Positions 11,160 through 59,831 of a stretch of DNA of 64,000 bases are shown here, piece by piece. The notes below the pieces were generated by a model. That model made no database searches, was not told the origin of the DNA, and worked only from the letters and a program-made list of their open reading frames with translations. The stretch spans positions 5,264,855 through 5,328,854 of the forward strand of contig OZ020491.1 in assembly GCA_963971405.1 (NCBI GenBank), read 5' to 3'. The number at the start of each line of letters is the position of its first letter. Position 1 is the stretch's first letter. The stretch comes from Psococerastis gibbosa (Eukaryota > Arthropoda > Insecta > Psocodea > Psocidae). The translations under genes and the position numbers were made by a program.

Positions 11160-12195
11160 AACAAGTTATATAATGCATGAAAACACGCGGTTGCTTAAGG
11201 GTTGATGCTCAATTTTGAGTTCATTCACATTTTTCATTGGGTACCAGATCATGTCATCTTGCGCAGGCCATGTGAACTTCCCCTCTCCAATTTTCTTCAT
11301 GGATTTGACTAAAATTTCCTACTCTTCCCAGTTGAATAATCCCGGGGTAGATTACGCCATCATAAACGATAAGTACCCACTTGCCCTATTGAAAAAAATC
11401 CTCTGAAATTGAATCATTTGGCGTGTTAACAGTTTTCATGTCAAAGCACTTGCCGGCAACTGGTAATTTTTTGTAGAAGCACGACAATTCTTTTAATTTT
11501 ATGGGCCCAAACTGCGTATGCATCGTGCCGTCTTGAGCCAGAAACTGTACAAATAGTTTCGGTTTCACCATTTTCAAAATAAACTACAACAGTGTGCAAC
11601 GTGGCCTGTTGGTGTGATCCTCCGAAGTGCATAGACTGGCCTGGACTGGATCTCTGTTGCCATTTTACACGAGTAATTTTCTGAAAAGTCCATGTGGACG
11701 ACAGCTTCATCGTAACAACTCATTCTTGCATTTATTAAATTGTTGAAACTGGTGTTTGATGTTGTAGACGTGACGACAAAATATTTTCTTCATTTCAACA
11801 TTGACAATGTCACATAATTCTCCAATGGTAGTCTGCTTCCTTAATTTGGACGTTTTCTTGAAGTAAATTTCTTTGCCTTCTTTTTCTGCCTTTTCATTAA
11901 CAGAAACCCATTCCAAGTATGCTACTTTTTTGGAGCCTGAACTGGCGTCTAAATTTCCAAGCAGAGGTTTGTCTTCACAATCATGGGAATTGTTATACAT
12001 TCACTTTTTGTTTTCCATGTCGTAAACAACCTGAGAGCAAATGGACTTCAATGAATCGGTCTCTAAAATATTTGCTTTCATTAGGGTATGCAGTTTCATA
12101 TCGAAGTTGTTATGTGTTTTACAGCGACAGCTATCCCTGTCAGATAGAGTTGGACGAACCATCCAAAATGAAGAGGGCACAGATCCCTGTAAATA
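11160..12195 (-). pseudogene. Uncharacterised transposase family (HFGGS / DGPTTQYR type), copy B, broken
   Basis: Reading minus from about 12195, the frames give FWMVRPTLSDRDSCRCKTH, a Cys-rich stretch, then VAYLEWVSVNEK..KTSKLRKQTTIGELCDI, SMHFGGSHQQATLHTVVVYF and a C-terminal part containing KWVLIVYDGVIYPGI. The same blocks, in the same order, occur in the copy at 13254-14987, so this is a second member of the family, carrying stops and an internal deletion that removes the DGPTTQYR block. It abuts a pogo-like fragment at about 12190. I recognise the family as a recurrent uncharacterised protein in invertebrate genomes but cannot give a named superfamily. Confidence 0.7.
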
Positions 12196-12437
12196 TTACT
12201 CGAGATCGCGTTTCCTCGGATAGACGTACACAGGTGGAAGAGCAATTCCCGTCGCACTAATTATACCAACAATTGTCAGTGATTCCCCTTTGTCCGCAGA
12301 CACATTAATCGCTACGTTTTTTTGCCAGACACTGAAAGCACTTTAACTGGCTTCATAACAGTTTGTAGGCCTGTTTCATCAAGGTTTAAAATGTCTTCGG
12401 CTTTGAATTCGTACTTTTCCAGCTGAGCCGCGTAGTT
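12190..12437 (-). pseudogene. pogo-like transposase, central DDE segment (continues from 15430-16023)
   Basis: The minus strand reads YAAQLEKYEFKAEDILNLDETG, followed by a region ending in IALPPVYVYPRKRD. This is the first catalytic Asp block (NxDETG) and the PP.YV.PRKR block of pogo/Tigger DDE transposases. It begins exactly where the inserted element 12438-15425 ends. The part after PRKR is lost at the junction with copy B of the unknown family. Confidence 0.78.
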
Positions 12438-13010
12438 GGGCCGTTTTCACCAATGTTGACACTTTCATGCATTATTTTATTTTAAAATTTATTCTCTCCA
12501 ATAAACTAATTTTATGGTTCATTCGCTACATTTATGCCTTACCCCTTTTGTGCATAAAATAGGTGTCTTTATTTTCAGTAAATGTTCAGTTATAATTTTT
12601 TTCCTCAAAAGATATGTTCAAAAATGTTACGGGACACTAAGGTTCTAGAATAGGCACTTCCTATCCCTGTTTTTCAATTCTTTCTAATTAGTTTGGTCCG
12701 TCGGATACTAAAAACTTACTAACAATTAAATAGACACAGGCGGATTGTTACTTAATCTAAAGACAATAGATAGTTGTAATAACCGTTACGCTGTATGAAT
12801 TTAACTACTGGAAAACTTACTGCCAATCAGTGCAGCCCGAGTTTTAATGACCTACTTCTTTCTCAATCGCAGAAGCGTTTATTTTTAGCTACTTTAAGAA
12901 AATGCTGTATAATGAAGCGATACGTTTACTTGTGGTAATTAATTTTTTTTAAAGAAAGTTACGTTCATTTCTTCAGCATGTACCAGTCATTACATTTTAT
13001 TTTTTCCCAC

Positions 13011-13189
13011 GGCCTTGCCGCCGATGACACATGTCCACTATGTCACGGTGGAAGAATGGACGAAGACCACCTGAGGGACTGCACGGCTCTCACCTACCCG
13101 AACGATGACTTGGTGAACCGCTATTGGGAAGCTCGGCGACGAATGGTTGAACTACCACGTTCGGGCGTTGGATAAAGTAAAGTAAAGTA
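13011..13189 (+). mobile_element. 5'-truncated LINE 3' end with perfect 12-bp TSD
   Basis: The plus-strand frame encodes a Cys/His zinc-knuckle tail (CPLCHGGRMDEDHLRDC) and YWEARRRM, then stops, followed by a TAAAG microsatellite tail. ATTTTTTCCCAC is duplicated at 12999-13010 and 13190-13201. This is a clean target-primed insertion into the noncoding part of the surrounding DNA element, thus younger than it. Confidence 0.82.
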
Positions 13190-13253
13190 ATTTTTTCCCA
13201 CTTTTCCCTGCCGCCTATTCCAACGGCAGAGTGCATATAATGAAAATGTTGAA

Positions 13254-14987
13254 CTATTTTTCAACTACGTTTAGAGGCTTGGGCCTCTTAAAGGTAATGC
13301 GCTCCCCTGTCTTAACACTTTGTGGCTCAGGCAAAATAGTTTCTATGTTTTGAACCTTTTCGTAGGAAATGTGTTTCTCACTAAGAGAGAAGCAATGCTC
13401 GCCCTTGGATTGAATCCCTTTTAAAAATGTCACTAACACTTCACCTTCGTCGTCGTCATAGTCCTGGACAATAGCAGCATAGCGGTATGTTGTTTTGTTT
13501 TTTTCCTGTGCTGACAACTTTTAACAACACACAGCTAACACATCGTAAGTTCGCAGGGATGCTGGAACCACACTTTATGTTAATTTCGCTGATTTCAGCA
13601 GTTCCTTCTTTATTCTCATCATTGTTGCATCCGTCCGACTTCCCTTCAATCATTAACGTGGCTTTACTCATCTTCGACAGGCATGAACAAAATTTCTCGG
13701 CGATCCATTTATTACCTTTGGAAAAGCAGGACACAGTAGGATGGTAAATTGTGGCGCTTTGAGCTGATGTAACAATTTGATGAATTTTCATGGTACCATT
13801 TATAGCAGTTACATTGCCTGGAACAATTTTTTGAATATCATCAACATCTTCCTCAGAAATATAGTAGAATTGTATTTTGATTCTTTGCTTTTCAATATTT
13901 GGAACATTGTTCCTGCATCATGGACATCTTGGACATGTGCAACGGCGTCATCTGCAGGACGCTTCACAACGCCTCCTATCCCATCCGCTGGACCTTTGCC
14001 GTGTCCCGCTTCTGAGAAATTCCATGTTGCCGCGAAAAACCCATACTTGATAACAGGAAGAAGTTCATTCTTTACCTGTACTGTGTTGTCGGCCCATCAG
14101 AGAAAAAGTGGAGCACAACCACTGAGGGAAATTTCTCTTTTATATCTTTTAAAACGGGATATAAATGGGCCCATATTGCTGCTGGCCCATGTTGCAGGCA
14201 AGGAGAAAGGGTGCAATAAGATTGTATGTTTTCTCCAATGCACGCAACGCTTGTGTGCTCAAAGTAACATGCTGCCTGACTCCACCAAAGTGATGTGCTT
14301 GCACCTCTGGCCATTTTTCCAGAATAATTTTCTGAGAACATTTTTGGCACTTTTCATTGCATTCTTTTGGACGAAATCATTATAAATATGAATTACGTAC
14401 TTCCGCAGATTGGCTTTAAATGAGTTTACAAGGTCCATGACTGTGCCTTCACGGTCTATTTTGGTAACAAATTTTGCTTCCCTTCCATGTTTATCTGCTG
14501 ATATGGTCTGCCTTGCCCATTCTTTCCACTTCACCACCATAGTAGGGTTCGTGACAGTGAGCTTGCCCTATTGTTTACCGCAGATTTTACAAGTTCCATA
14601 CATGCAACTGTAGGTTGTGTTACTGTTGATAAAAGCGTTGAGATGGCTGAATCCATCAATAACGCGTAAGGTCTTTAATTTAGCAAATGCCAACTCTTGG
14701 TTTTCATGAGTTTTACATCTGTAGGTATCGCGTTGGTCTACCTTAGGCTGTAGTACATAAAACGGCCGGTTTCTTGTGATTGTCGTATACGACACAGGAT
14801 GGTGAGTTGCGTTGTAACATTTATGAAATTGCTTCATGGATTTTAAAAGAAACCGCTTTTGCCTCTTGTCCTTCTTCTTCGTAATGGTTTCGTTTTTTCC
14901 AGCTGTTATGAATCTGACAGAATCGCGTAAGAAAAATGATTTGATGGATTTGGAGTAAAGAAGCCGCTCCTTCTTCCTTTGCTCCAA
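13254..14987 (-). pseudogene. Transposase of the 12438-15425 element (frameshifted)
   Basis: The gene reads minus, in order: a basic N-terminus, RPFYVLQPKVDQRDTYRCKT with a Cys-rich stretch (CMYGTCKICGK, possible zinc site), VVKWKEWARQTIS..VTKIDREGTVMDLV, then WAHLYPVLKDIKEKFP and VLHFFSDGPTTQYR, a TWNFSEAGHGKGPADGIGGV segment with KRPADD, and a C-terminal module ending near 13260. The pieces are in at least four frames, so the gene is dead. The Asp in FFSDGPTTQYR and the acidic E in FSEAGHGKG are candidate catalytic residues, by inference only. Intact length would be roughly 560 residues. Confidence 0.7.
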
Positions 14988-15429
14988 AACTAATCTCTTT
15001 ATTTCTCGTAATCCTAGGTTAAATGAGAGCTGCTTGCGCGTTTTCTGTTACGTTCATTACGCGCTTAGCGGACAGGCCAGAAAAATAGATTAAGTCTGTA
15101 ACCAAAATGTTACTTGTTATAGAAACATAGCTCTTTGATATTAAGTAATGACTAATCTCCCCCAAGGATTCACAACTGCGTACAATGGAAGAGGTTTACT
15201 GTTCCGATTGGCGGAGAGACAGTGTGTTCTGTGCATTCCAAGCTTGAAATAGTGCGATACATCAAAAAAGTAATGGGCACAAAAAATTGATTGTGTATCA
15301 AAACCATCAATTGAACTGTAAGCTTTCATTAAAGACCAACCATGAACTAAAGTAGTAAGGGATAGGCGACTTAACATAATATAACACATGAGGACAATAT
15401 GTGTCAACATTGGTGAAAACGGCCCAGTT

Positions 15430-16023
15430 ATCAAAAAATTTGGAAACTGACGTTCTGTTGAATGCAGCAGCCCTAGCTATGGCAGTGTTCTCTGGCTTCC
15501 TGTGGCTTAGCTTAGGATGCTTAGCCATAAACCCTAAAACCCAATCTTGTCCCGCCTCTTGCTTTTTTATCCATGATTCAGCAACCTGGATTCTAGGAAA
15601 CAGCTTGGCGTACTCATAAGCCATCTTCCTAGCTTCGCTTTAGCTCAAACCGTGGTTTAATAACTCACACTGTGTTACATAATCAAATAATTTACCCTCC
15701 TCTTCTGTAGTAAAAATTTCAGACGTGGAGTATTTGTTCGAGAACTCCGTGGCCTTTTTTGGTACAGCGACAACGTTTTCCCCTTCCCCTTCACTTTCTT
15801 TTCTTGAGTCGTCTCGATAACGATGTCGCAAGGTGTCGAGTGAGTGTTCCCGAAGAAGCACATCGATCCTGGAATTGAGGGTTTGTCTTATGATACCATA
15901 CTGGCGTGCAGTACCCGAGCGGGGAACCCTTCCGCGGATATGTCTTTCCACATAGCAACTAGTCTATTTCCGCCCTTTGGGTCTTCCTTTTATAGTTTCG
16001 AACCATCTATTTTTAACCACCAT
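15430..16023 (-). pseudogene. pogo-like transposase, N-terminal segment
   Basis: The minus strand reads a psq-like HTH remnant (SGTARQYGIIRQTLNSR), TTEEEGKLFDYVTQCELLNHG, then WVLGFMAKHPKLSHRKPENT and SVSKFFDN. This is the CENP-B/Tigger-type second HTH that precedes the DDE domain. A frameshift near 15640 separates two frames. The gene resumes at 12437 after the inserted element. An R1-like LINE poly(A) tail abuts its start at 16024. Confidence 0.75.
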
Positions 16024-17335
16024 TTTTTTTTTTTTTTTTGTTAAGGAGGTCGAGAAAATCCATCATGGATTCCCCCGCCCAGTATCCTAAGATAATGGCG
16101 GAGGATATGTGAGACTCTTACTCACTAAAAACTCATGACCCCCGCTTCTCTCCTCCCCCTTACCCCTGGAACCGCCGTTAGGCATTACTTCAGACGCAAG
16201 AGATCATTGGAGTACAAGACACACAACCGCTGAGTCCTCCAGTGCCGGGGTCATCAAAGCGGCAATACTTGCCACCCCCACATTAGAGGACACAGTAGCA
16301 CACAAGTTACAAACAGAAAACCCAAAATACACAATAGCACAAGACTTACCAACTACACATCCTAAAAAATACAAAATACACTAGTCATCTACTAACGATT
16401 TTTTTATTATTATTATTATTATTTTTTTTATTTTATTTTATTTTTTCTATTTATTTATTATTATTTTTTTTAATCGAAAACATATATAACATTTAAATAT
16501 CACTTAACTTAACACTTATCACTTCACTACGGAGCCGGCTGGACTGGGTCCCGCTGCCTTTGCCTCTCCGCCTCCTCCTTCCGCGAAAGAACAACCTCGC
16601 GGAAAGACACAAAAGCGTTCCAGCACCGAATATCCAACACCATGTACCTGGTGACGTCCTCCGGGGAGAAATTACCTATAGCCGTCACCAACACCGCCCT
16701 CTCTGGAGCCCATGCCGGGCATGCCATCAAGGTGTGTTCCGCGGTGTCGTCACCGGCTCCACAATGATGACACACTGGGGCGTCTGCTCGACGGATGCGG
16801 TGTAGGAACGACTCGAAACACCCGTGGCCCGTCAGCATCTGCGTAAGGCGGTAACTTGACCTCCCCCTAGGCCGCTCCACCCACTCTGCAACGTCGGGAA
16901 TCAAGCGCTTCGTCCAGGCGCCCTGATCCCTGGGCTCTACCGTCTCCCACCGCTGCTGCCAGAGTAAAAGCATGGTACTTTTGGCCATGGCCTTGGCCGT
17001 GGATCTGTCCGAGCCCCGCGCAACCCTTGCACCGACCTCCATAAGTGCCCGCACCGTTAGGTCGATAGGAGGAACCCCTGCTATGACCGCCGCTGCAGCA
17101 CCTGACACCGTCCTGTATCCAGAGATGCACCTTAGGGCACAACGCCTCAGCACCCGCTGCAGCAAGTTCACGTTGCGTTTAACGCCCAGCTTGTGTGCCC
17201 AGACTGGATAGGCGTAAACCATCACTGAGGAAACCACGCCCATGAGGAGCCTCCGACGCTCCTCCTTGGGTCCCCCAAGATTGGGCATCAGACCTTCGGC
17301 ACCCTGCCGATACTGCCCCACAGGCTCTGCCGGAA
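16024..17335 (-). mobile_element. 5'-truncated R1-like LINE with poly(A) tail
   Basis: The minus-strand frame 16527-17321 is a reverse-transcriptase C-terminal region (KEERRRLLMGVVSSVMVYAY, then YRTVSGAAAAVIAGVPPIDL) ending with the Cys-Cys-His-Cys knuckle CHHCGAGDDTAEHTLMACPAW typical of R1-clade elements. A roughly 490-bp 3' UTR and a 17-nt A-run (T at 16024-16040) follow. The catalytic RT core and endonuclease are missing by 5' truncation at about 17335. The GC-rich coding part contrasts with its surroundings, which suggests a relatively recent insertion. Confidence 0.82.
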
Positions 17336-17598
17336 CTGTCCCATATTACATGTATGTCAACAAATTCAGTTGGCGGGGAAAACCATCGAAATAAGGTTAA
17401 AATTGATGTGTGTAATTGATAAGATATGTCTGCCAAACAGATTCAATAATAAAGTTAAAATGTAATGTTTAAGAGGCGCAGGCAGTTAATGAAATAATGC
17501 TGCAGCAAAAATAAGTTTTGGCGGGTAAAAATTTAATTAATTTTTTTTTTTTAAATTGCTCATTATACCTTTGAGGCTTTGTGTAGTTGAATAGCAGC

Positions 17599-18627
17599 TC
17601 AGATGTAACTCTTTGTCGTGGCACTAGTCAAATACCAAAATATTGCAAACGAAAAAAAGCGGGTTGATCTTAGTGACTTTGACAAATCAACAGAAAACAT
17701 GACAGTATTTTGAAATCTCGTAGAGCTTTTACTCTGAATTGGCCCTTGCATTCGTTCTATTACATCTGCCGCGGCGACGTAAGCCTTTTCCTCCGTTGCT
17801 TTAAAACGGTATGTTTTTAGAAGCCTCCTATAAAAAGTCACACCTATCCCAGCCTTTTTTATCTCCGTAATGCAGGCAACATAGGCACGATTTAAACTCT
17901 TGACGTCGTTGTAGACCTTATCCAAAAGGAAGTCTCCAATGTTAGTGGGCTTTTCGTCCTCCATATCAACTTCTTCCTGATCTTCAGAGTACCAATCGTC
18001 GTCGACATCACTATCTTGAACCGACATGGCAGTCGAATCCTCTGAAGATTCAGAAAACAAACGTTTTCTAACGTTTTTACGTTGCGCCTTCTCATTTTTC
18101 TTACGCTTCCTCTCTTCGATTCGAATTTGTTTTTCCTGCTCTTTTGTTTCTTTTTCTACTTGTTCGATTTCCTGTCTTTCTTTGTTTGGCGTTCCTGTAG
18201 TATGGTTAGCTTTTATGCATTTCTTTCGCTTTCTCGTAATTTCCATTTTTGATAGTGGCATCAAGTCCGAAGGGATTTGTATGTGGTCGATGGCCCTGCG
18301 GATGGACTGCGGTGTAGATGGGGCAGCATCCTGCATATGCGACGTTACTACAGCCACTAGATCATCCTGTGCATTCTCGTCTTCAGCGTTAAAGACTTTA
18401 TCAAAAGCTAATTCGTCACTATGCTGCTGAGGTGCGTCATCATTGTCAAAGACCACAAGGGCCGTCTCCTCGCCGCTCAATTCTGTGTATTCATCATGAT
18501 CGGTTGTCTTACAAGGCAAAAAATCAGCTTCGGTGGGAACACTCCTGTTATAAGGATGAATTCCAGTCACCTTGAAAGCCTCCCTCGCGGTTTCAAGTGT
18601 GGCTGCTTTGTCAAATGCAGTGTTCAA
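17599..18627 (-). pseudogene. pogo-like transposase C-terminal fragment
   Basis: The frame starts in TAFDKAATLETAREAFKVTG followed by IHPYNRSVPTEADFLPC, the end of a pogo/Tigger DDE domain (GF..TGI.P.N...F...DFLP). It then has an acidic linker, a Lys/Glu-rich coiled coil (ERQEIEQVEKETKEQEKQ) and a conserved tail (VFYRRLL-like GVTFYRRLLKTYRF). It lacks the HTH and catalytic domain. It joins abruptly, at about 18625, to an envelope-like fragment. It may belong to another copy of the element at 15430-16023, but the order of pieces argues against the same copy. Confidence 0.7.
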
Positions 18628-19266
18628 GAGTCGGGAGGTACAATAAGGACATTCTGATGGTTAGGAACAGGATAAATTTGGAACATTTCGGCATGTAGGG
18701 GTTTCAGGATTGGGATTTTCAAAAGTAAAGTGATTGTCTGCTCAGTGACTGTCGCTGATATTTTGGCGGCTCCTAGTGACTGGAATCGGTTGTTTTTATT
18801 AATTGGCAAAAGTTGTTTAGGATTATAGAGCTTTTCCAAGTAACTCTGGATTTCCAATAATCCTTTAACATTAATTAGGGATATTATGCAAAGAAAAACT
18901 AATTGTTTGTTCAATGGTTCTCAATCGTTCCAATAGATTTTCAGACTAGAAAATTTCGGCTTGTAAGAGCCCCCGTCGCTCCAAATTTTCACTAAACTTA
19001 AGAATATCAGCTTTGGCTCGGTCAAGATTTTTATTTATGATTTCTTCTTCGTCAGCAAGACGCCTGTTAAAGTCGTTGGTAAAGGATGTGAACTGGTTAA
19101 TTTTTTCTATAACTCCTTTCTGGCTAGCATGTAATTTCCCCAAATTATCATTTATAACTAACAGGTCATCATTATCTAAGTTTCCCGAAGTAAACCTTAT
19201 TGCTTTCCCCAATATATTTACAAGGGATGGAGATACTGACGCGTGAATACTCCGCACCGTATACAT
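18624..19266 (-). pseudogene. Envelope-like fragments of an LTR retroelement (errantivirus/Gypsy type)
   Basis: Two minus-strand frames in order, 18946-19266 and 18624-18914, resemble the ectodomain of fusion-type envelope proteins of insect Gypsy-like elements: a glycine/asparagine-rich start, a long heptad-type helix with charged residues, then a block with a YPVPNH signature. There is no fusion-furin site or transmembrane anchor in what remains, and no pol or LTR is adjacent. It is a broken remnant. The left edge fuses to the pogo fragment and the right edge meets the tandem repeat at 19281. Confidence 0.5.
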
Positions 19267-19282
19267 TCTTTTGTAGCGTTGA

Positions 19283-20150
19283 CATCATTACCACCAGTTA
19301 GCTCCACAACGTATGGAACAGTATCTGGGGCCCATGCTGAGAGTACTTTCTCTTCATAACCCACCAAAAGGGGATAGATCGCTTCCGGGTGACCTAGAAA
19401 GTAGGAGATTGCGGAGCGATCCGACAGAAGCTTATTTAAGCGGTGAAAGCTTAGATAAATAGGATCAGCTCTGAGGCGAGTATTCGTAACAACGATGCCT
19501 GCCTCTCTTCTTATGGCGATTTCTCTCGCGGAAGGAGCTGGAAGTACACTTGGTTGGTACGTGACCGAGCGTGTTAGACTCGCTGCCTCGGGCACGTTGA
19601 AGATAATGTCCCACGCCACCGGGATAATCTTCGCAAATGGACTATCTATTGGCATTGTACTAAAGTACGCCTTAGCCAATCTTCTAGATCCACCTGTTGA
19701 AAGACACCCGCGTATTAACTGTTTAAAAGAACTATCCAGTAGATCACTTTCTAATGTTCGGTTGATCAGATCTGCCCGCCGAATGGAAAGCTTATAATCG
19801 TACTGATCCACGAACCCTTGAAGACGTTCGTGCATCGATGCCATTATCTGGAGATTCTCCGAAAATGCAGATTCAACCGACATCTGCCGCAGCAGATTTT
19901 CGGGCGCTATAAAGGCGCTTATCGGTTGCCTAGCCAGAGCCGCCAGACTCGTTGGCGAGATGGTCACCCGAACGGGCAACCCGCCGAAGTCATTAACATC
20001 GCCAATTCTATCGCTTAATAAAGCGTCCATTTTTAAACGAGTAGCCGTTTTCAATCGAAACGCCGTCTCACCATACGTGTAAATGTAATAGTTAAGACGG
20101 GAAAACATTCCGATTATCCCCGTGGTGAAGTATGTGAGGGCTAGAGCCAT
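19283..20150 (-). CDS. Orphan ORF, unit 1 (unknown; possible viral structural relic)
   Basis: A long minus-strand frame starts MALALTYFTTGIIGM and runs about 290 codons to the unit border, where it continues 22 codons into unrelated sequence (stop at 19218). An in-frame upstream Arg/Gly-rich stretch (EGRRSRGKGAERM) precedes the Met back to a TAA. The protein is mixed alpha/beta in feel, Leu/Ala/Arg-rich, with no transmembrane segment, zinc site or transposase motif. I do not recognise it. Balanced codon content and absence of stops suggest past selection. A basic leader followed by a globular body would fit a capsid-like protein, but this is a guess. Confidence 0.5.
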
Positions 20151-20284
20151 ACGCTCTGCCCCTTTGCCCCTCGACCTGCGACCCTCTATAATTTAACTAT
20201 AAAAAAAAATAAAAAAAACTATAATTTCTTCGATTTTTAACAGTGACGCAGAGAGCGTCAGAGAGAAACCTTCAACGTATCCAA

Positions 20285-20520
20285 CTCTCCTGTGTCATAA
20301 TTAAAATGCGTTATAACGATTGACGAATGGCTTCAATTAAGCGAGACTTGCCACAGCCTGCCTTACGTAGAAAGACATAATAACAAGGACCTTTTCCTTT
20401 GAACTGGACCTTTCCTTTAAACTGATGTAGTTGTAAAGGGAGGAAAGGTGATTTGAAGCTAGTGTCAGATGGATCCTACCTTGTTGAAGGCTAGCAGCTT
20501 GTTTTTTGAGTAGGTGTCTA
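20285..20520 (-). pseudogene. PIF1/Helitron helicase Walker A fragment, unit 1
   Basis: The minus strand reads GPCYYVFLRKAGCGKSRLIE, a P-loop of the PIF1-family helicase found in Helitrons. The same roughly 200-bp block, with about 10 percent differences, occurs at 43430-43610, where more of the helicase is kept. Upstream and downstream helicase motifs are absent here. Confidence 0.65.
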
Positions 20521-20571
20521 GGATCTCAATAACTTGAGCTTTTTAATAAAAGTCTTTTATTTGAACGGTTT

Positions 20572-20880
20572 TTACGTTTTCCTTAACAACAATAAAAGTG
20601 TGCGTAAGACACTCAACTGACGCAAACGGTGCAGTAAGGATGACGGCTTCTCATCGCCCAGTGGAGCATCCGCTAACAATTTTTGTATTCTCTCCGTATC
20701 TGACAGACTAAAGGTCTGTAGCACACGATTTTTCAAATATGTGTAGGGAGGCACCTGCGGTGGCGTATTAATAATGTTCCGAGACTTGCTCAATTATACA
20801 ACTCTCTAAATTGGCAATCGTCTGGTTGAACACCGAAAATTCATCTTCAATGCCCACACTTTTGAAGATGGCTTCAATTT
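20572..20880 (-). pseudogene. Gypsy-like gag fragment, unit 1
   Basis: The minus strand reads IEAIFKSVGIEDEF, then INTPPQVPPYTYLKNRVLQT and LADAPLGDEKPSSLLHRLRQL. This is the conserved gag core of insect Ty3/Gypsy-type elements (PP...Y..LK..L ... LGD.KPS..L..LR.L). There is one stop between the blocks and no nucleocapsid zinc knuckle. It is repeated identically at 22353-22661. Confidence 0.7.
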
Positions 20881-20887
20881 GGTAAAA

Positions 20888-48467: not shown

Positions 48468-48471
48468 ACAT

Positions 48472-49750: not shown

Positions 49751-50191
49751 CGTTACATCATTCCGGGCAGCATATAAATTAGTCATGTTTGCAAATTCCT
49801 CCATAAGCTCGGTTGGCAAGTACTCCTGAAAATACAAAATAGGTGGTTTCTCTTCCAGTAGATCCCTTGGTCCTTCTTCAATCCAATTATTGCCGCTTGA
49901 TTTGACGTATTTACATTTTCTTCGCCAAATAACTCGCCTTTTCACCTTTTTCGCCGTTTTTATTTGAGGTACCTTATTGGAAGGAACTTTTGGAGCTGAG
50001 TCACAATCCGACTGAGGAGACTCTTCGTCAACATCGTGAGAACTTTCCAAATCAGAGGGCAAAACCTCATCTTCCATCATTTGGTCCTCATTTTCCGATA
50101 GGTCTGAAAGGTCGGACATTTCCGCCAGGTACTGTGTCAGCTTTTCATAATCTCCGTAACGACGGAACGTAAATACTTTTCTTTTTGACAT
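48776..50191 (-). CDS. In-frame piggyBac-hAT fusion ORF, 471 aa
   Basis: Residues 1 to about 145 are a piggyBac N-terminus (MSKRKVFTF, acidic LSDLSENEDQMMEDE, then PPILYFQEYLPTELMEEF and NMTNLYAARND). From about 146 the frame is hAT: VRKVAPECQITHCIIHREAL, LLLHTEVRWLSRGKIFELRS and the C-terminal dimerisation end TYLCESGFSELLYTKNKYRN. There is no stop across the junction at about 49755. Neither catalytic core is complete: the piggyBac DDE is absent, and the hAT lacks its first Asp and DNA-binding finger. If translated, it would be an acidic piggyBac N-terminal domain on a hAT dimerisation module. Fusion may be accidental. Confidence 0.75.
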   Translation of the reverse strand: MSKRKVFTFRRYGDYEKLTQYLAEMSDLSDLSENEDQMMEDEVLPSDLESSHDVDEESPQSDCDSAPKVPSNKVPQIKTAKKVKRRVIWRRKCKYVKSSGNNWIEEGPRDLLEEKPPILYFQEYLPTELMEEFANMTNLYAARNDVTVRKVAPECQITHCIIHREALAASKNMPEILKSVLVDVVKVINFIKARALNSRLFALLCDDMGSKYKSLLLHTEVRWLSRGKIFELRSEVYVFLNEMEHEKRNLFNDETWLTKLAYLADIVEKLNFLNLGLQGLSTTVFVANDKITGFKRKLQLHQSQAMNKDISSFSTLSTFVKENELNIPDSDFTLISQHLEALQTSFLNYFPKRDMKKYDWIRDPFGENVDNEVIVDKEVFIDLTSDSSMKDTFEKQGVVAFWLATKKEYPSLFEQAVKFLMPFVSTYLCESGFSELLYTKNKYRNKLSVEEDLRVKMTSFEPDIDSLLQKR

Positions 50192-50748
50192 CTTTGAACG
50201 ATCTGAATAACAATGAAAACAAATTCATATCATCAGACAAATAAATGAAAAACAATGCTTCATAACATGCGTGAAGACCCAATGGCATGTCCACTGACCA
50301 AACAAATGATGAAAAAAAAAAACAATATCAACTTGCAATTTACTTAACATCTCATGTTAAAACTTTTTTCTAATGATAAAAAAAAATTGATTAAATTTGC
50401 TAATCCACAATTTTATTGTTAATGAAACTGCGTAAAAGCTAATACAAAAAAATAATAATATGCTTACCTCGACAAGGGTCAGTTTGGTCCGCCACGTTTA
50501 TGACAAATACAAATATCTAATATTTTTTGGCAGGAAACGCGCCAAAATGATACATAACACGCAACAAAAACTACAAACATTCCATTTTCAATATTTATTT
50601 TGAATGTTGGCATCACTGCTAACTCTGGCGGTCTTTTTAAAGTAATGGTAGGTACACCTACCACAGGGTCTGACGAGGTTAACAACGAAATTTTGTAATA
50701 ACAATTTTGAAAATCTGCAACTTCAATCTCCAGTGTACATCTATTTAG

Positions 50749-50855
50749 CATTTGTCACTCTAGGGTCTGGTCAAGGTGAAAAATAACACACCACGTGGCA
50801 AATTAAATTTGAGGCAAGAGGGCTTTGGACCTCCCTAATAAATGTGATTTAATGC
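50749..50855. repeat. Short dispersed repeat, copy 2
   Basis: It shares the start CATTTGTCACTCTAGGG and the later AATAAATGTGATTTAATGCC with 23512-23605. It lies 70 bases outside the TTAA target of piggyBac element A. Confidence 0.55.
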
Positions 50856-50983
50856 CGCAGTATCTGAAAAGGGAAAATATTAAATTTAGCAAAAAGATTA
50901 TGGGCTTCAAGGAGGACAAATTTAGATAGTTTTGGAAGGAATGATTAAATAATTTAAATAACAGATTTAAAATAAATTTTATT

Positions 50984-51199
50984 TTACCTCAGGCATGCAT
51001 CCCAGAAAAATGGAAATAAAACAATAACAAAGCTTGGTCCAATATGTTCCGCAACAAACTGAGTGTTTAAATTACTCAACTCACTCAGCCTGACCGAGGA
51101 GAACGGGTGATACCCGTTACATAATTCATGAAGAAGGAACTTGTGTTGTTTCTCATTTAGAATATTCACAATATTAGAATACTCACCTTGAGTTAGCAT
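50984..51199 (-). pseudogene. PIF1/Helitron helicase N-terminal fragment (tentative)
   Basis: The frame reads YSNIVNILNEKQHKFLLHEL followed by CNGYHPF, resembling the LN..Q......L stretch (Q-motif) that precedes the P-loop in PIF1/Helitron helicases. It diverges before a P-loop. It is short, so tentative. Confidence 0.4.
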
Positions 51200-51298
51200 C
51201 TTGGGAATCGGAAGAATAACTTAATCTTGGCGGGATTTTGCACTTCCCGGTGTAGCCATTTATTTCTGTCTATATTTCTATGCATTGTTTTTGTTTTA

Positions 51299-52148
51299 TT
51301 AAAAACGAATGTGTCTCTCTGGTTCTCTATTACATAAGACTTCGTAATGCCTCTTGTTACAAATCTTGCACACAATATCAGTACGAGAACAGTTTTGTAC
51401 TCTATGCCTCGGTATTAAACAACGAAAGCAACACTCACCGTCTTGTAGAGCTTTGATTTTCTCCTCATAATTCATGCTCTTCTTAGCCTTGTAACAATCT
51501 TTACTTGGGTGTTGTTTGTGGCAGAAAACACAATTTTGAACTGACTTGGTCTGTAGTAGAGCCAAAGCCGATGGAACACTGTCTGCTGCAATGTTCCTAT
51601 GTTCCTTTACTCCCTTAGCGGCAATCGAGACTCTTTGTTCTGATTCTACTTCTCCCCGAACAAAACGTAAGAGATCTTTAAGCTGCTCCTCGTACGTGCA
51701 ATCAGCCTCTTCAGCTCCGTCTCTAGTAACCAAGTACCGTTTTCTTTCAAACGATCTTAAAGTCTTGTTTGGCAAAGCGGACTCTACTAACGGGCACATT
51801 ATGGCCGCGAACTCATCACTCTTTAGTCCTAGTGTTTCAAGGGCTCGTAGTCTTGTCTCAATATTGTCATACAAATTAGCCAAATCTCGACTGTTTTTTG
51901 TTAAGGTTATGTGCTGCTGTTCAAAGGGTCCCTAGACCTATGTCAGCTCAACCCTCTAAGGTTATGTGCATTAGCTCGCGCACATAAATATTAACAAGAA
52001 GTGTTTTCCTCCCAAACCTTTGCTTTAAATGCTCAATAACTTTACGATAATTGGCAGGTGACGGTGGAAAAGAATAAAGAACTGTCTTAGCCACATCCGT
52101 CACACTTTGTCTCAAATATTGAAGCTTTTGGCCGTCACTCAACTCACA
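51299..52148 (-). pseudogene. BEL/Pao gag fragment with three zinc knuckles
   Basis: 51948-52148 reads LSDGQKLQYLRQSVTDVAKT and FPPSPANYRKVIEHLKQRFG. 51299-51883 continues MANLYDNIETRLRALETLG and then CVFCHKQHPSKDCYKAKK, CFRCLIPRHRVQNC and CKICNKRHYEVLC. This is the DUF1759 plus zinc-knuckle gag of BEL/Pao. A frameshift near 51900 separates the parts. Its start is cut at the junction with the piggyBac gene at 52150, and pol is missing. Confidence 0.8.
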
Positions 52149-52151
52149 AAG

Positions 52152-53285
52152 TTATTTCCATTTCCTCATTTCTTTTCTATTTTCTCGTACAGTTCCTACA
52201 AGGTGCGTTTTTTTGTCCAAAAAAACCTTGGCTAAACTATAACTTGTATAGAAATTGTCCACATACAGAGTGCGACCTTCGTCAAGTAATCCATCAAGGA
52301 GCTGCAAACATACCTTTTCAGCTAGGCCAGTGGTGGGTTTACCTGTAGAAGTTTTTCCGGCATAAACAATTACGTTCCATGTGTAACTGGATCGATCGCA
52401 TAGCTTGTACAATTTAATCCCATAACGGTGGGCCTTGTTTGGAATATACTGACGAAATACAAGACGGCCTCTCCAGGGCACGAGCGTTTCATCTATGACA
52501 ATATCAGACCCAGGGGTGTAAATTCTCTGAAAAATTGCAACTATCATGTCCAGTAAGGGCTTGATCTTAGATAGACGATCACCAATTTGACTATTGTTAT
52601 TAAAATGAATTTTGGACAAAAGCAATAAAAAACGGTTTTGTGACATGACCATCTGGGGTACTTTCTGCTTGTATATTAACTTAGTGCTCCAGTAGTCTTG
52701 AACTTTACCCATGGGCACCAAGCCCATCCACATTAAAAGACCAAGAAATTTTTCAATTTCTTCGCTGGTTGTAGGGGTCCAAAACAAATATCGGGCTGAT
52801 TTTTGTTGGGGACGCACCACACTGTATACAGCATAAGCATTTGTCTCCGCAGCAATCAGTTCTAGAACCTCTTGAGGAACTAGTGTCCTCCAAATGTCTT
52901 TAGGTGACGATGGTAGATCATCACTTGTAACTCCTTCTCTGCCCGAGAAAGGAAATGTCTTTTGACGACCAACGAAATCGGACCAAATGTGTTGATCTTC
53001 TTTCTTATCTTTTACTGTGGCACTCTTAGTTGAAAAATCAGAAGGGGAGTCACTGTCCTCTACCTCATCCAGCACTTCATTATTTTCCTCTGCTTGTCCT
53101 TCCTCCAAAATTTCCTGCAGTTCTGCCTCAGACAGAACTTCCTCGTCAGATTCAGCATTGGAAGAATCCGGCTTCCACCCGTCAGAACCATCTGTGTGAT
53201 ATTCATAAAGTTCGTCATCAGAGGGAAGATTCTCCAAAACTTCAGGAATCTTATCTAATGGTATCACTTTCCTCCGCTTGCTCAT
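52152..53285 (-). pseudogene. piggyBac transposase, C-terminally truncated (about 377 aa)
   Basis: It starts MSKRRKVIPLDKIPEVLEN with an acidic N-terminus (the open frame extends to 53366 upstream, but this Met fits the family). It has WRTLVPQEVLELIAAETNAY, VIDETLVPWRGRLVFRQYIP with the first Asp, and LYVDNFYTSYSLAKVFLDKK with the second. It ends after VGTVRENRKEMRKWK, where a stop coincides with the BEL/Pao junction, so the third catalytic Asp and Cys-rich tail are lost. No frameshift is seen before that. Confidence 0.82.
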
Positions 53286-53359
53286 GATTCTGAAATGACC
53301 ATAGTAACATTTTAGAAGAAAGCCAAACTCTGCAACTTCAGTGAATTTATGGAATAATC

Positions 53360-53510
53360 GGGACATGTAGAGTAGTGGTACAGACTCTGACTTTCACCCG
53401 AAAGGTTTTTGGTTCGAGTCCTACACTTCCTGGCCATGCTTCGGAGGGTGGTGGTGGGCCACTCTTATTGACTTCGACTGTCGCGGGCACCTAAATATTT
53501 TTCGGTTCAC
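53360..53510 (+). mobile_element. tRNA-derived SINE, truncated copy 2
   Basis: It has an A-box-like AGTGGTACAGACTCTGA, then CACCCGAAAGGTT and a B-box GGTTCGAGTCC. The body matches 26525-26720 up to the GGCCATGCTTCGGAGGG block and then ends. It lies between two elements. Confidence 0.6.
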
Positions 53511-53978
53511 GCTTTTTAAAATTGATATGTTCGGCCATGCGCCTCCGAAACCGCTGGAGATATTAACACCCTGTTCGTGGTAATAATTGTGATATTGGTC
53601 GTGGTTCCTTCCTCCACCCCCATAACCTCTAAAATCCGCTTGGTTTTCTTGGCAGTTCTAGACAGTTTCTTTTGGAGATGTTTCGCTGCTTGTAGTTTCA
53701 ACCTTTTCCTCCTGCTGTGCCTTCTTCATCTCAGCCTTTTTCTGCTGCTTTGACTTCTTTATCTCAGCTTTTTCCCTGACCTCAGCCTCTTTATTCTTTT
53801 TTCCCTCGATCATGTCTTCTAAGTATTTTTTAACTGGCGTCCCCGAAATGCGATATGGTGGAGGCTGGGATATTTTCCTCTTTCTTATGACAGTCGACAT
53901 CGGTAGAGGTGGCAAACCGGAAATTGGATGACCAGATGTTGCAACTGCTGCCTGTTCCTCATCTGTGATTTCGGGGGA

Positions 53979-54244
53979 TCCCATAACGGTGGGCCTTGTT
54001 TGGAATATACTGACGAAATACAAAACGGCCTCTCCAGGGCAGGAGCGTTTCATCTATGACAATATCAGACCCAGGGGTGTAAATTCTCTGAAAAATTGCA
54101 ACTATCATGTCCAGTAAGGGCTTGATCTTAGATAGACGATCACCAATTTGACTATTGTTATTAAAATGAATTTTGGACAAAAGCAATAAAAAACGGTTTC
54201 GTAACATGACCATCTGGGGTACTTTCTGCTTGTATATTAATTAT
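53979..54244 (-). mobile_element. Internal piggyBac fragment inserted with 11-bp TSD
   Basis: This 266-bp block is about 98 percent identical to 52420-52680, an internal exon-like part of the neighbouring piggyBac gene (the RFLLLLSKIHFNNNSQIGD to VFRQYIPNKAHRYG region). It has no terminal repeats. It is flanked by ATTTCGGGGGA at 53968-53978 and 54245-54255, and removing it restores the pogo sequence across the site. Confidence 0.78.
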
Positions 54245-54255
54245 ATTTCGGGGGA

Positions 54256-54671
54256 AGGTCCTGCTTGGTGCTGCTCTTCTGGCTGAGGCTGGTTTGTCAC
54301 TTCTGCTGGGGCGAAGTCATCATCTGTAAATACGTGAGGATTGTATGGTTCTAAACCGGTTTTTTAAATCCACTTACAGCGTTTTTAATGGTCGCAGCAC
54401 GCAAGTATGCCTGTCCGAAAATCTTTCCCACCTCTTTTTCTGTGATAACTTCTCCCGGATGATTCACCATAAACGCATCACAAGCCTGTGAGTAATGTCT
54501 TTAAAGGTCCATAAAAGCTTACATCGAGCGGTTGGAGTCTGTGACTGCAATGAGGGGGAAACCCGATTAATGTTAGGGAGTTGTCCCTTGCCCACTTCTA
54601 CCGAAATATGGGTGGTATGGCTGTCCATAAAGAGAACTACAGGATTTTCGGAGGACGGTTTGGTAAATTTA
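54256..54671 (-). pseudogene. pogo-like transposase: second catalytic Asp segment
   Basis: This is the part of the split pogo gene between the two insertions. It contains NPVVLFMDSHTTHISVEVGK (catalytic Asp), a region homologous to the LQPLDV stretch (degraded), SQACDAFMVNHPGEVITEKE and AYLRAATIKNAVSGF. At least two frame changes and one stop are present. Confidence 0.7.
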
Positions 54672-54974
54672 GCAAAGTGCCATGCGCGCCGACTTGTGCA
54701 AAATAGTGGTAAGGCACCGTGGCACGGTAAAACCTTTATATTATATAGTATAACTTAAATATAGCCGGGAATTATTAAGAAAAACACAGTCAACGTACAA
54801 TGGCTTAATTACTGTGCATTACAGTACTGTATATTGTCCAAAGTATAAGTAGTTAAGTACATGTCATTTTTCAATTTCTTTAATGACTATGAAATATGAA
54901 TACGGTAACATTTTGTAACTGTAGTTGAAAGGCAATGCGATTACATTTTTTAAATGAATACATAAATACATTAA

Positions 54975-55364
54975 GAGGATATAGTACGTAGACACGTGGT
55001 CACCACAAATTCCAACACATTTTATTTTTTTATTCCTTTTATATGAAAGATATCAAAACCCTGTTGCTACCGTGTATGTATTATTCCTCAAGGCATCGTA
55101 GTGTTATGAAATTTTTAATTTTAGATCTATAGTTTTTTATATAAAGTGAGACTCGTCAGAAATTCGCTGAAGTTCTGACGAGTCTCTCTTTATATAAAAA
55201 ACTATTGTATTGATCGAAAATTAAAAATTTCATTACACTACTATGCCTTGAGCAATAATACATACACGGTAGCAACAGGGTTTTGATATCTTTCATATAA
55301 AAGGAATCAAAAAGTAAAATGTGTTGGAATTTGTGGTGACGACGTGTCTACGTGCTATATCCTC
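54975..55364. mobile_element. 390-bp near-perfect palindrome (foldback MITE) in TTAA
   Basis: Arms of roughly 180 bp start GAGGATATAGTACGTAGACA and end with the inverse at 55364, around a centre near 55170 (GACTCGTCAGAAATTC / GAAGTTCTGACGAGTC). TTAA (54971-54974, 55365-55368) flanks both sides. It would form a long hairpin RNA if transcribed. Confidence 0.78.
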
Positions 55365-55437
55365 TTAACACATTATTTGCAAATTGTGCTGCATTGCAAA
55401 TACAGTAGGCCTATATGTAAATAGACTATAAACGAAT

Positions 55438-57995
55438 TTAAAATAAAGCGAACGTTGCTTTCCTCACTTGATTTTTTTTTATAAAGTCATTTACAATGGG
55501 TCTTAAGTCTAATGCATCTAGTTCCAATTGGTGCGCATTTAAGACAGCTAGATGATTCAGCCTAGCCTGCCCCATAGTGGACCGAAGATACGTTTTCAGA
55601 CGTCGAAGTGAGCTGAACGACCGTTCAGCGGTTGCTGTCGTCACTGGAATGGTCCGGAGGATTTTAATGCTCTTTGTCACTTCCTCAACTAGATCTTTTA
55701 TACTTCCTTCTTCTACGAGAAATTTTCTTACGTCACGCATCGTGGTGAGTGAGATCTTCCGTTGCTTAGAAATATCATGTAGCATTGACAGATGTAGGGA
55801 GAGTCTTCCAATGTCTATGTCATTACAAAAAAACTTTTGTGCATTTTCCAACGAGGAAATGCCTTGGGCCACAAAAGATGCAAGCTCTTCTTCCACAGCA
55901 ACAACAGTATTAAGGGAGGATGTCTCAAAGCGCCTCCTTAAGCACATCAAAACTGTGTCGCATACCTCTATGTACATCTGCTTGAAGTAATTCTCTGCTC
56001 CTGTAAATTCGTGTCCTTGTCCTGCACCACCACAACTTTCCAATTTTTTTGGAATACGCCGTTGCCTAGGGAGTTCGGGATTGCCGACGAACTTCATCCT
56101 TTCTGTCTCCTCCAGGCACTGATCCCAGAATTTCTTATACTCCTCACGCCTTGCCGTCATAATGGCTATGAGAAAATCAATCTTCGCCTTAATTTCTGCC
56201 GCGCCGATATGGGGCGATTGTATTTGTGCGTTAACTTCTTCAAGTGGAGTCATTATTTTGCTGTACAACAAAAGATGAAAAAATGTTTTAAATGACTCCA
56301 TTTGGTGGAGATATCCCGAGCACTTCGCAGCTGCGTCTGACGTATCATTTTCGGAAAACTCTTCGAAAAAAATTGCGATTTTTTCATAATGCTTTAAAAT
56401 TTTGTTGATACTTGAAGCTCTCATCGTCCATCTTGTAGGACATAGGGGACGTAGAGTTTTGATAGGTTTGGCATTACCTGGATCTGGGATATTTTTAAAC
56501 ATTTCCATACGCTTTGGTGATTCTCTGATAGTATTGATTAGGTCTTTGGCTAAATTCATAATGTCTCTCATACAAGGGAGGTGCTTTAAGCTATCTTCTA
56601 CAGCTAAATTAAGATTATGAGCGGCACAATGTACATACATCGCTTGTGGTTGTAAATCAGCAACAAGTTTTTGCAATCCATTGAATTCCCCTCGCATTTG
56701 AGAAGCCCCATCATAGCACTGACCCCTAAGCTTGGAAAATGGCAACCCTAATCGAAGAAAAATGTCTTTGACTATCTCAAAAAGAGTTTGTGCCGTGGTA
56801 TTCGGAGCCGCATACAAGCCTACGAAGTCCTCAAAAATATCCATATTGTCATCCACTGTTCGCAAACAAAACGTTACTTGCTCATGAACTGATATGTCTG
56901 TAGTCTCGTCCACCATAATGCTAAAATAGCCTCTATTCATTGCCCCTTGTACAACATTCTCCAAAACAGAGCGGCTCAACATTTCCACTATCTCGTTTTG
57001 AATATCGTGAGACATCCAGGTGTATTTTTTAGCTTTATGGCCTAACCACTTTTGCATTTCCGGGCAATCATCTTTTCTCAAATTGACCAGTTGCCAGAAA
57101 TTTGAAGAAACGTCTTCATGGCCGCGGATGGCCAACCCTTGCCGACAAAGAAATCTCAAAGAAGAGAAGAGGCATAATAACGCTGAACGGGCACTCCTCA
57201 TCTCGTTGTTCAAATTCTCATTTAGAAGTGTGGATACATTTACGTTTTTCCCCGTTTTAAGAACGCTTTCTCTATGCGAACCACTATTTTCGTGCTTTCG
57301 AAAAGTTGCTGTAGCATTTTTCCAGTAGCTGAATCCTTTTTTTGTGAAAGTCTCCTCCTTCAGTTTACATAAAATTAACAGCCCATTACTTTCAGCTTCC
57401 TTACATATTTTGCAAAACACTAGTCCTCGGGAATACTCCATCCAAGGGTACGTTTGAAGCCATGATTTATTGAATCCCCTTCGCTTAACAGCATTCTTAT
57501 TTCCCGAAGAAGAATTTGGAATCGTAGCTTGCGTTAAGGCAGTTCCTGGGCCTGTTGAATAAAAAAAAATATATATTGCAGATATATTATGTTCTTTTAA
57601 CACATATCTCATCGAGGCTTCTTGACCAAAAAGTGCTTAAAATTGTAACTGGAGAAATAACTGTGCAATAGGGTTAACTGCTACGATTGGCCGTAGTCAT
57701 GACTATATTTCGGAGGAGGTTCAGATTTCAGAGGTATGGGTATGGGTATGGGTATTTAATTAATGGCAAGCATATTATTTCCATGTATACCTTAAACTGG
57801 ACGTTAAAAAATAGTTCATATATGTAGTAATTTCCCCTTTTTTTAACAGTCAATAAATGTTGACACATTTCCATTAATTGATTACCTACCTGACCCCGCA
57901 GATTCCGCCCTTCCGAGAATTGTAGTTGCTGCTGATGTAGAAGGTTCCGTCACCATGGGTGTAGACTTTTCTTTGAAAAATTTTCTGATATCCAT
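55438..57995 (-). CDS. hAT transposase, ZMYM1-like (two exons, about 739 aa)
   Basis: Exon 1 (57995-57890) starts MDIRKFFKEKSTPM and ends in phase 1 at donor GTAGGT. Exon 2 starts at 57551 after TTATTCAACAG and is open to 55438. Features: TTF-type zinc-finger region (WLQTYPWMEYSRGLVFCKIC, GFSYWKNATATFRKHENSGS), IMVDETTDISVHEQ (first Asp), GQCYDGASQMRGEFNG (second Asp), CAAHNLNLAVEDSL, and the dimerisation end TTATAERSFSSLRRLKTYL. A 5' UTR intron probably precedes the ATG (TTGTTCTAG at about 58008). With intact frame, splice sites, ends and TSD this is a candidate autonomous element. Confidence 0.88.
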
Positions 57996-59000
57996 GCTTT
58001 CAGACCCACTAGAACAAAAAACAAGCAAACTTGTGAATTTAAAATGTAAGTTTAAAAGGGGAAAAATAAAATATATTAACCATATAGGTATATTATTTTG
58101 GCATTTTGCCCAGTTTTCACTTCCAAATTTTAATTTCATTAATTTTTAAACCTACTTTTACGATCACGTGTCGGCCTTACTACATAAATTCGAAAGTACC
58201 ATGTACGTGACAGTCATGTAAAAATATCACGAAGTACATTTATTGCAGTTCTACAATATTTTCTAATCATGATAATTCTCTATATATATTTTTTTGCCGT
58301 GACCGACCGTAACTGCAAGGTAGGTAAGTAGGCCTACACGTCTAAAATCTATACATAAGTCGGAACCTGTTTAGTTCTAGGCCAACCAAAGAAAATTCAG
58401 CTACTTACTACTAACTTAAATTCCGAAATTCACTTTGTCAATGTAGTTTATTAGGGATTAAGTAACATACGGCATTAGTAGGTACAGTACAATAGGCTAA
58501 TGTATGAGTAATAAAATTAAAACAAGAAGTTAATGTAAATTGGTGCTTACCTGTTCTTGTGTGAACTAGATTTGAGAACTTTCTATCAGTTTGTGAACGT
58601 TGAAAAGTGAACACAACAATGGAAGAACATAGGGAAGAGAAGTCTTAATATCAATTAAACCAAAAGATTCAGTTTGGAGAGGAAAATAAAATAAAATATT
58701 GAACTTAACAATCATAAGCTACACTTACTGTATGTATAAGCGTAAACACATTACAATTTACAAATTTACAAACATGGCCGCGACCGCCAATTTAAAATTT
58801 CGTGCCCTGATTGGTTGTTACAGCCACTCTCTCGTCGGGGCCGCAAATTTGCGCCAATTTTGAATTTTCATTAACTTTATTCTATTTCTTGTTTTAATAT
58901 TAAATTTTATTTTTATCTGAACTTAATGCTACTTTAAAAAATAAGAAAAAATTGCAACAAAAATTCCTAATATTACTTTGAAAAGTGGTAAGGCACTGCC

Positions 59001-59763
59001 TTACCACTTTCCAAAGTGGTAAGGCACGTGCCTTACCATTCTATATGAAGTCGGCGCGCATGCAAAGTGCTGTAAGTACTGAAGAAATAATTCTGAGGTC
59101 ATCCAGCCACGTTTACAGACAACAATTATTGTTTCTGGTGGACAACCTATGCTGAATTCAGGACGCAATCGTTTTCTTGGAAATATTGGGAAAGGAGGTA
59201 CAAAACTACCAGCTGCACTCATAGCACACACTAAAGAAACAGTTTTTCCACGTTCACCTGAAACAATTTTTGAGACTCTTTTTTGATCCTTTTGGTGAAA
59301 TTACTTTTGGTAGTTTAGTAGGAACTGTTGGCAAACCAGTTTCATCACAATTATAGATATTGCTTGGTGGGAATTTGCCTGCAACTTATAAATCTTTCCA
59401 TGTTTCAAAGAATTTTCCAACGTTAACTTTATTAAAACTCATTAACCGCCCTATAGACGAAAATTTATTCTTTAACATAATCTTTTGCATTCAATCTTTC
59501 CCAGCAAGTTGGGAGTCTCTATTGAACCTGTGAGGGATTCCAACAATTTCGGCACACGTGTAGGCCACTTTTCGCAGCTGCAGAGCTGTCAGGCCAAACG
59601 CTCGTTTGTCAACATCCTCCAGGTAAATCTTCAAGTCAGCATTCTGCTCCGCAGTAAAAGTGTCATTGAAACGGCCGCAGGACTTCGGAAATGATTTCTG
59701 GCCCCTGGACTTAATCACGTACCGTCGGAGCGTGGCTTCCGGCAAATCGAGTGCCTTGGCCAC
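59001..59763 (-). pseudogene. pogo-like transposase: N-terminal HTH to first DDE part
   Basis: This portion of the split gene holds the psq HTH (ATLRRYVIKSRGQKSF), FGLTALQLRKVAYTCAEIVG (second HTH), the NCDETGLP catalytic block near 59350 and GCPPETIIVVCKRGWMTSEL. Frameshifts occur near 59490 and 59290. Bases 59001-59061 belong to the inserted hAT end, after which the frame is unrelated. Confidence 0.72.
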
Positions 59764-59831
59764 TGCTAAAGGTTTTTGGCTGATATGGCCGTATCCATGC
59801 TCTCCTTACTCCATGAACCTCTGTCAGGCAT

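Follow-up and report, generated by a model that had tools for sequence, protein, structure and literature searches.

A nested transposon array in Psococerastis gibbosa oriented almost wholly against a neighbouring gene: a possible uni-strand piRNA locus

We analyzed a stretch of 64,000 nt from the insect Psococerastis gibbosa (assembly GCA_963971405.1, contig OZ020491.1, positions 5,264,855-5,328,854 of the forward strand), hereafter the window. Positions 11.16-59.83 kb of the window hold an array of about 49 kb, after which 4 kb of the window remain. The array is a graveyard in which elements from many transposon families lie nested, nearly all of them running one way, on the minus strand, opposite to a neighbouring plus-strand gene. 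From this arrangement, known to us as DNA sequence, we consider it quite possible, though somewhat short of an even chance, that the array is a past or present source locus of PIWI-interacting RNAs (piRNAs) of the uni-strand type, transcribed on the plus strand.

After copies and split pieces were merged, and an open reading frame (ORF) at 19221-20192 was left out, the array yields approximately 31 insertion-like events: 29 minus-strand and 2 plus-strand (two-sided binomial probability 5e-7). Five further merges (env with gag; two Helitron pieces; the hAT frames of 31617-37487; a hAT part fused to piggyBac; and the elements that we call DUF_A and DUF_B) reduce the count to 24:2, for which the probability is 1e-5 per window. 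Restricting the count to events that match Pfam or a homolog at E<=1e-3 leaves 15 and 1 (5e-4), and the five bounded coding elements, all on the minus strand, give only 0.06. The bias extends across unrelated superfamilies and nested insertions, and we conclude that it is real. The two plus-strand events are as follows.

12939-13172, plus strand: tail of a long interspersed nuclear element (LINE), inside DUF_A; recognized by eye, without a Pfam match.
42767-43015, plus strand: fragment with a double-jelly-roll-like domain (PF21738, E 6.4e-6, 26.0 bits vs a cut-off of 27); no relatives among viral contigs.

A preliminary description of this DNA had reported the bias with a single exception, having missed the second of these fragments, and had counted more than 20 independent fragments; the strength of the bias is borne out, and some of the fragments proved to be split or duplicated copies.

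An ordinary graveyard could also produce such a pattern as the chance extreme when a large genome offers windows by the many thousands, an explanation that we regard as a serious contender with a likelihood of roughly a third, nearly that of the piRNA reading. Assuming a genome of 1-3 billion bases, or 16,000-47,000 windows of 64 kb, the conservative value of about 1e-5 would lead us to expect 0.2-0.5 such windows if all were equally element-rich. Several events were, moreover, labeled by eye (R1 at 16.5 kb, pogo, the LINE ORF1 at 38.4 kb, the BEL zinc knuckle at 42.5 kb, the Helitron names, and the plus-strand LINE tail at 12939-13172), and the events at E<=1e-3 give only the weaker figure above. 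The probability of the full count argues against chance, as do the sequence similarities within the window, which are all on the minus strand save for one overlap with an inverted repeat. These similarities were obtained by tblastn within the window, with 48 minus-strand pieces (47 of them in the array) and 4 plus-strand pieces as queries. Minus-strand cross-hits of the 47 array pieces numbered 42 (41 by hand count); many are reciprocal, and 4 represent near-identical copies. The single plus-strand cross-hit overlaps a terminal inverted repeat (TIR) of the element DUF_C.

Long ORFs offer a test that is free of reading by eye. Within the array, ORFs of at least 150 amino acids comprise 7128 residues on the minus strand (with the tandem copy described below counted twice) and 378 on the plus strand. 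Second-order Markov sequences (n=20) yielded about 110 residues expected per strand, with maxima of 357 (minus) and 682 (plus), and the plus-strand sum is thus within chance. In the left flank (1-11159), the same threshold gives 407 residues on the minus strand and 0 on the plus strand; 248 of these 407 belong to one reverse transcriptase ORF at 1785-2531 (RVT_1, E 7e-15).

The Pfam-A scan of the array covered 51 minus-strand entries (50 distinct, since the 16.5 kb ORF was entered twice) and 55 plus-strand stop-to-stop ORFs. The analyst chose the ORFs, not blind, and took the longest minus-strand ones first, so that coverage was 37/38 (minus) and 21/21 (plus) for ORFs of at least 100 amino acids, and 47/59 and 42/54, respectively, for those of at least 80. 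Mobile-element domains were matched at E<=1e-3 by 16 of the 51 minus-strand entries and by 1 of the 55 plus-strand ORFs; matches between 1e-3 and 1 were excluded from the counts on both strands. Six of the 16 (env, gag, one BEL, one reverse transcriptase, one piggyBac, and one hAT) lie below the curated cut-off of Pfam, as does the sole plus-strand match. Matches near 1e-3 are weak when taken alone, as is shown by another plus-strand ORF that hit an ABC-transporter domain, unrelated to mobile elements, at E 9.1e-4; we took this match for chance. In naming families, we took DUF1759 to represent BEL, DUF7041 the Gypsy gag, DUF4371 hAT, and the gag_pre-integrs fragment Copia, and we likewise assumed the double-jelly-roll domain to be part of a mobile element.

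Five coding elements carry TIRs and exact target-site duplications (TSDs), and three of these elements sit within others. They are listed here together with the pogo elements that two of them interrupt.

12196-12437 and 15426-15963, minus strand: pogo 1, split by DUF_A; named by eye.
12438-15425, minus strand: DUF_A, 2988 bp, with perfect 20-bp ends (TIR start GGGCCGTTTTCACCAATGTT) and the 4-bp TSD AGTT.
31617-37487, minus strand: hAT insertion with the TIR CAGGGCCGGATCTA and the 8-bp TSD GTTCTAGG; inside it are hAT frames at 32075-34666 (864 amino acids) and 35965-37070, both minus, and a TTAA miniature inverted-repeat transposable element at 35393-35816.
44032-50678, minus strand: piggyBac insertion with a TTAA TSD and the TIR CCTCGTCAGACCCG (13/14 bases); coding parts at 44324-45627 and, for the N-terminal part, near 49.8-50.2 kb, both minus.
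45628-48467, minus strand: DUF_C, with a TIR and the 4-bp TSD ACAT, within the piggyBac insertion; it encodes a DUF7869 protein at 46042-47643.
54467-54680 and 59063-59805, minus strand: pogo 3, split by a hAT insertion; DDE_1 at E 0.01 only, named by eye.
54681-59062, minus strand: hAT insertion with the TIR CATGCGCGCCGACT and the 8-bp TSD CAAAGTGC; it contains an open transposase frame of 732 amino acids at 55441-57636.

As controls for the search for repeats and TSDs, pair-shuffled sequences (three each) gave 0, 0, and 0 pairs for the 8-bp, TA, and 4-bp classes, and 0, 1, and 0 for TTAA. The bounds of the piggyBac insertion are less secure because one of the three shuffles also produced a TTAA pair. 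An additional 8-bp pair at 49562-56217, with 11/14 repeat bases, was taken for chance, and a search for inner terminal repeats around the 864-residue hAT frame (32.1-34.7 kb) found nothing convincing.

Two nestings are proved by translation of the empty sites. When DUF_A is skipped, one frame of pogo 1 crosses the junction, and when the hAT insertion at 54681-59062 is skipped, the joined flanks of pogo 3 are open across all 300 bases tested. The pogo 1 piece at 12.2 kb also matches the pogo piece at 59.2 kb (E 1.4e-7). For DUF_C within piggyBac, nesting is supported rather than proved, since only about 15 codons of open frame precede the junction. Both proved inner elements are on the minus strand, in keeping with the earlier observation that nested elements retain the common orientation. 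The pogo pieces at 12.2 and 15.4-16.0 kb thus form one element, and those at 54.5 and 59.1-59.8 kb form another.

These insertions bear on the idea that the fragments arrived as complementary DNA pieces or as one composite block, in which case their shared orientation would reflect non-independence. The array does include a tandem duplication and one copied piece, and an apparent in-frame fusion of piggyBac and hAT parts was recognized by eye. However, the TIRs and exact TSDs of five coding elements, three of them nested, and the long frame restored at both pogo empty sites rule out such an origin for the bounded coding elements, although truncated retroelement pieces could have come in this way; as an account of the array, we consider it scarcely credible. 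Insertion directed by replication-fork or transcription direction, with no later selection, seems to us very improbable as well. It would suit a bias that spans superfamilies with different machinery, and any directionality would therefore be regional; against it, we know of no directionality of this kind for hAT, piggyBac, or pogo.

The DUF7869 family (PF25273) has 62 relatives, with an insect in every row that names a source. Because its carrier, DUF_C, has TIRs and a 4-bp TSD inside piggyBac, the protein behaves like that of a DNA transposon, which suggests that the DUF7869 family belongs to DNA transposons. DUF_A, which also has a 4-bp TSD, shares DUF7869 motifs when compared by eye, and its proteins resemble those of DUF_B; the DUF_A protein pieces that were scanned gave no significant Pfam match. 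A literature search on the name DUF7869 returned no match, and the superfamily may bear another name.

Under the uni-strand piRNA interpretation, the array would be transcribed, now or formerly, on the plus strand, either by read-through from the neighbouring gene or from its own promoter, and the resulting RNA would give rise to piRNAs that are antisense to the elements inserted there. We propose that antisense insertions would be retained because they silence their own families, while sense insertions would be lost, either for providing no silencing or for terminating the transcript. Remnants largely in one orientation are a trait of uni-strand clusters, and the array shares it at 29:2; the antisense relation to a transcript is what we infer. 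The other defining traits of such clusters are abundant, uniquely mapping RNAs of 24-31 nt with 1U bias and phasing that derive from one strand, and a long single-strand precursor. Several points weigh against this interpretation. DNA transposons (hAT, piggyBac, pogo, and the DUF7869 type) dominate the array, and Gypsy is minor. Depletion of plus-strand poly(A) signals, a possible mark of a protected long transcript, was sought and not found, with 46 AATAAA seen vs 35 expected (standard deviation 7) and 44 ATTAAA vs 38, which is weak evidence against a long precursor. Furthermore, a probability of around 1e-5 per window is unremarkable when all windows of a large genome are taken together, and the evidence is confined to DNA, with the bias measured solely inside the window.

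The direction of the proposed transcript corresponds to that of the neighbouring gene, which is predicted as follows.

366-9064, plus strand: host gene for an LDLRAD3-like single-pass membrane protein with Ig and LDL-receptor class A domains; exons at 366-528, 2593-2753, 3920-4162, 5468-5563, 6316-6503, 7319-7453, and 8879-9064 (with the stop).

The splice phases of the seven exons are compatible, and together they encode the Ig, LDL-receptor class A, transmembrane, and proline-rich tail parts; the 5' end of the gene lies outside the window. The best of 79 homologs belongs to a katydid, Anabrus simplex (E 1.7e-86, 47% identity, 85% query coverage). The others that bear names come mostly from insects or springtails; a tick and two snails appear at lower ranks. 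The conserved core stops in exon 7319-7453, and the final exon located is 8879-9064; past the core, the protein tails show no conservation among seven aligned homologs. A stop at 9064 closes the last exon found, which bears out the gene end given previously, and the array is therefore taken to lie downstream of this predicted LDLRAD3-like gene. The introns of the gene contain two plus-strand LINE-like tails (6670-6897 and 7490-7648), which were recognized by eye and matched nothing in Pfam at E<=0.1.

The array might instead belong to a long untranslated or non-coding extension of the neighbouring plus-strand gene, or to a hidden intron, from which sense insertions were purged for their terminators or splice sites, with no piRNA role. 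We judge this improbable. No intron is seen around the array: the stop at 9064 and the unconserved tails of the seven homologs leave its placement in a host-gene intron unsupported, although hidden untranslated exons are possible. Plus-strand poly(A) signals are not depleted, and the antisense bias of introns is partial and weak for DNA transposons. In favor of this explanation, the neighbouring gene is on the plus strand, and the portions of PMC3517506 and PMC1794541 that concern human gene introns report an antisense transposon bias with the same proposed cause. Intronic bias and the array are alike in opposing host transcription; the array differs in lying after the last exon found, in being near-total, and in including DNA transposons.

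Among known piRNA loci, flamenco and the flam-like clusters of Drosophila resemble the array in that remnants mostly oppose one inferred direction of transcription in a gene neighbourhood, and the array also contains a Gypsy env fragment. As far as the account in PMC10643416 extends, flam-like clusters are rich in antisense Gypsy elements and are defined by enrichment and bias of long terminal repeat (LTR) elements, a bias that among LTR families is exclusive to Gypsy; the same reasoning on why antisense insertions are favored is given there for flam-like loci, with sense insertions proposed to bring poly(A) signals. The bias of the array is carried mainly by DNA transposons, which that part of the source does not cover, and its Gypsy content amounts to two weak pieces, without the Gypsy-borne bias or enrichment of env-bearing Gypsy seen in flam-like loci. 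Flam-syntenic loci outside the melanogaster subgroup measure 227-1,085 kb (PMC10643416, same part); the array is seen over 49 kb, the window ending 4 kb later.

Similarly, the section of PMC3259105 on Aedes aegypti describes many piRNA clusters whose transposons are all, or nearly all, in one orientation. Three of these clusters overlap piRNA-making genes; in two, the transposons are opposite to the gene, as in the array, and one has no main direction, and the authors assume that a cluster is transcribed like its gene. The Aedes clusters were defined by small RNAs, unlike the array, which is defined by DNA. On this comparison, they would seem to fit the array better than flam-like loci do. The uni-strand description recurs in the relevant part of PMC13172572, which mentions somatic clusters in other insects; the relevant part of PMC10588112 yielded nothing on orientation. 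A more specific proposal is that the array is a gene-adjacent uni-strand piRNA locus outside the Diptera, with the antisense bias carried by cut-and-paste DNA transposons from many superfamilies in place of Gypsy retroviruses, and that it acts as a general one-way trap rather than an anti-retrovirus locus; this is conceivable and, in our assessment, unlikely.

The remaining features of the array are as follows.

11166-12195, minus strand: DUF_B fragment; tblastn to DUF_A pieces, E 4e-5 to 5e-3.
16530-17345, minus strand: C-terminal part of an R1-like LINE, by eye; zf-RVT at E 0.46 only.
17602-18626, minus strand: pogo 2, C-terminal part, by eye; no Pfam match.
18627-19284, minus strand: Gypsy env fragments; PF07253, E 4.8e-5 (18946-19284), below the curated cut-off; the piece at 18624-18920 has no Pfam match and was labeled by eye.
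19221-20192, minus strand: ORF of 324 amino acids; no relative found.
19271-21061 and 21052-22842, no strand: tandem duplication, 1.79 kb units, 99.8% identity.
20314-20505, minus strand: Helitron helicase piece, 80% to the 43.4 kb copy; named by eye.
20575-20793, minus strand: Gypsy gag piece; DUF7041, E 6.8e-4, below cut-off.
22939-23510, minus strand: BEL gag fragment; DUF1759, E 7.6e-7 (22936-23337).
23526-23957, minus strand: LINE reverse transcriptase fragment; RVT_1, E 4.4e-6, below cut-off.
24206-24400, minus strand: Helitron helicase piece, 68% to the 43.1 kb copy, E 6e-18; named by eye.
24401-25426, minus strand: hAT fragment; E 2.4e-8 to the 36.9 kb hAT, no Pfam match.
26816-29158, minus strand: hAT-like transposase, open frame of 781 amino acids; PF05699, E 1.9e-4; terminal repeats were sought, with nothing convincing found.
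30235-30621, minus strand: Copia fragment; gag_pre-integrs, E 4.3e-7.
31014-31432, minus strand: piggyBac fragment; tblastn from the 52 kb copy, E 2e-11.
38362-38787, minus strand: LINE ORF1 zinc-knuckle fragment, by eye; no Pfam match.
39638-41533, minus strand: piggyBac transposase; PF13843, E 6e-26 and 3e-65.
42482-42748, minus strand: BEL-type zinc-knuckle fragment, by eye; no Pfam match.
43018-43600, minus strand: Helitron helicase pieces; DNA match and tblastn, named by eye.
48779-49790, minus strand: hAT C-terminal part; PF05699, E 4.3e-4, below cut-off.
50749-50867, minus strand: LINE reverse transcriptase piece; DNA match, E 8e-5 to the 23.5 kb fragment.
51302-52151, minus strand: BEL gag fragment; DUF1759, E 5.3e-5, below cut-off; matches the 23 kb fragment.
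52155-53393, minus strand: piggyBac transposase, N-terminal part; PF13843, E 5.7e-68.

The piggyBac piece at 53978-54240 is a 98.5% copy of 52417-52679. In the ORF at 48779-50224, a piggyBac N-terminal part is fused in frame with the hAT C-terminal part, the fusion point having been placed by eye. The tandem duplication is either recent or an assembly error. The ORF at 19221-20192, previously proposed as gag, finds no support for that label: 0 of 3722 candidates matched it at E<=0.01, with no relative in PDB or among viral contigs. Its possible origin as a captured virus gene is likewise unproved; a single-sequence structural model was useless (mean predicted local distance difference test score, pLDDT, 34). 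Elsewhere in the window, a foldback element with long inverted arms occurs in three copies (1447-1830, 43613-43990, and 60690-61076), and copies resembling short interspersed nuclear elements derived from tRNA occur at 199-290, 3368-3470, and 63512-63597. Rfam scores two of these three copies as tRNA (57.8 and 32 bits) and at gathering thresholds found nothing else in the window.

If the array is not a piRNA locus, it usefully cautions that an almost complete orientation bias need not reflect a piRNA role. If it is, it would suggest a DNA-only criterion for recognizing such loci in insect genomes that lack small-RNA data. Should the array indeed make piRNAs, it would show that every class of transposon, and not Gypsy alone, can come under selection for antisense insertions.

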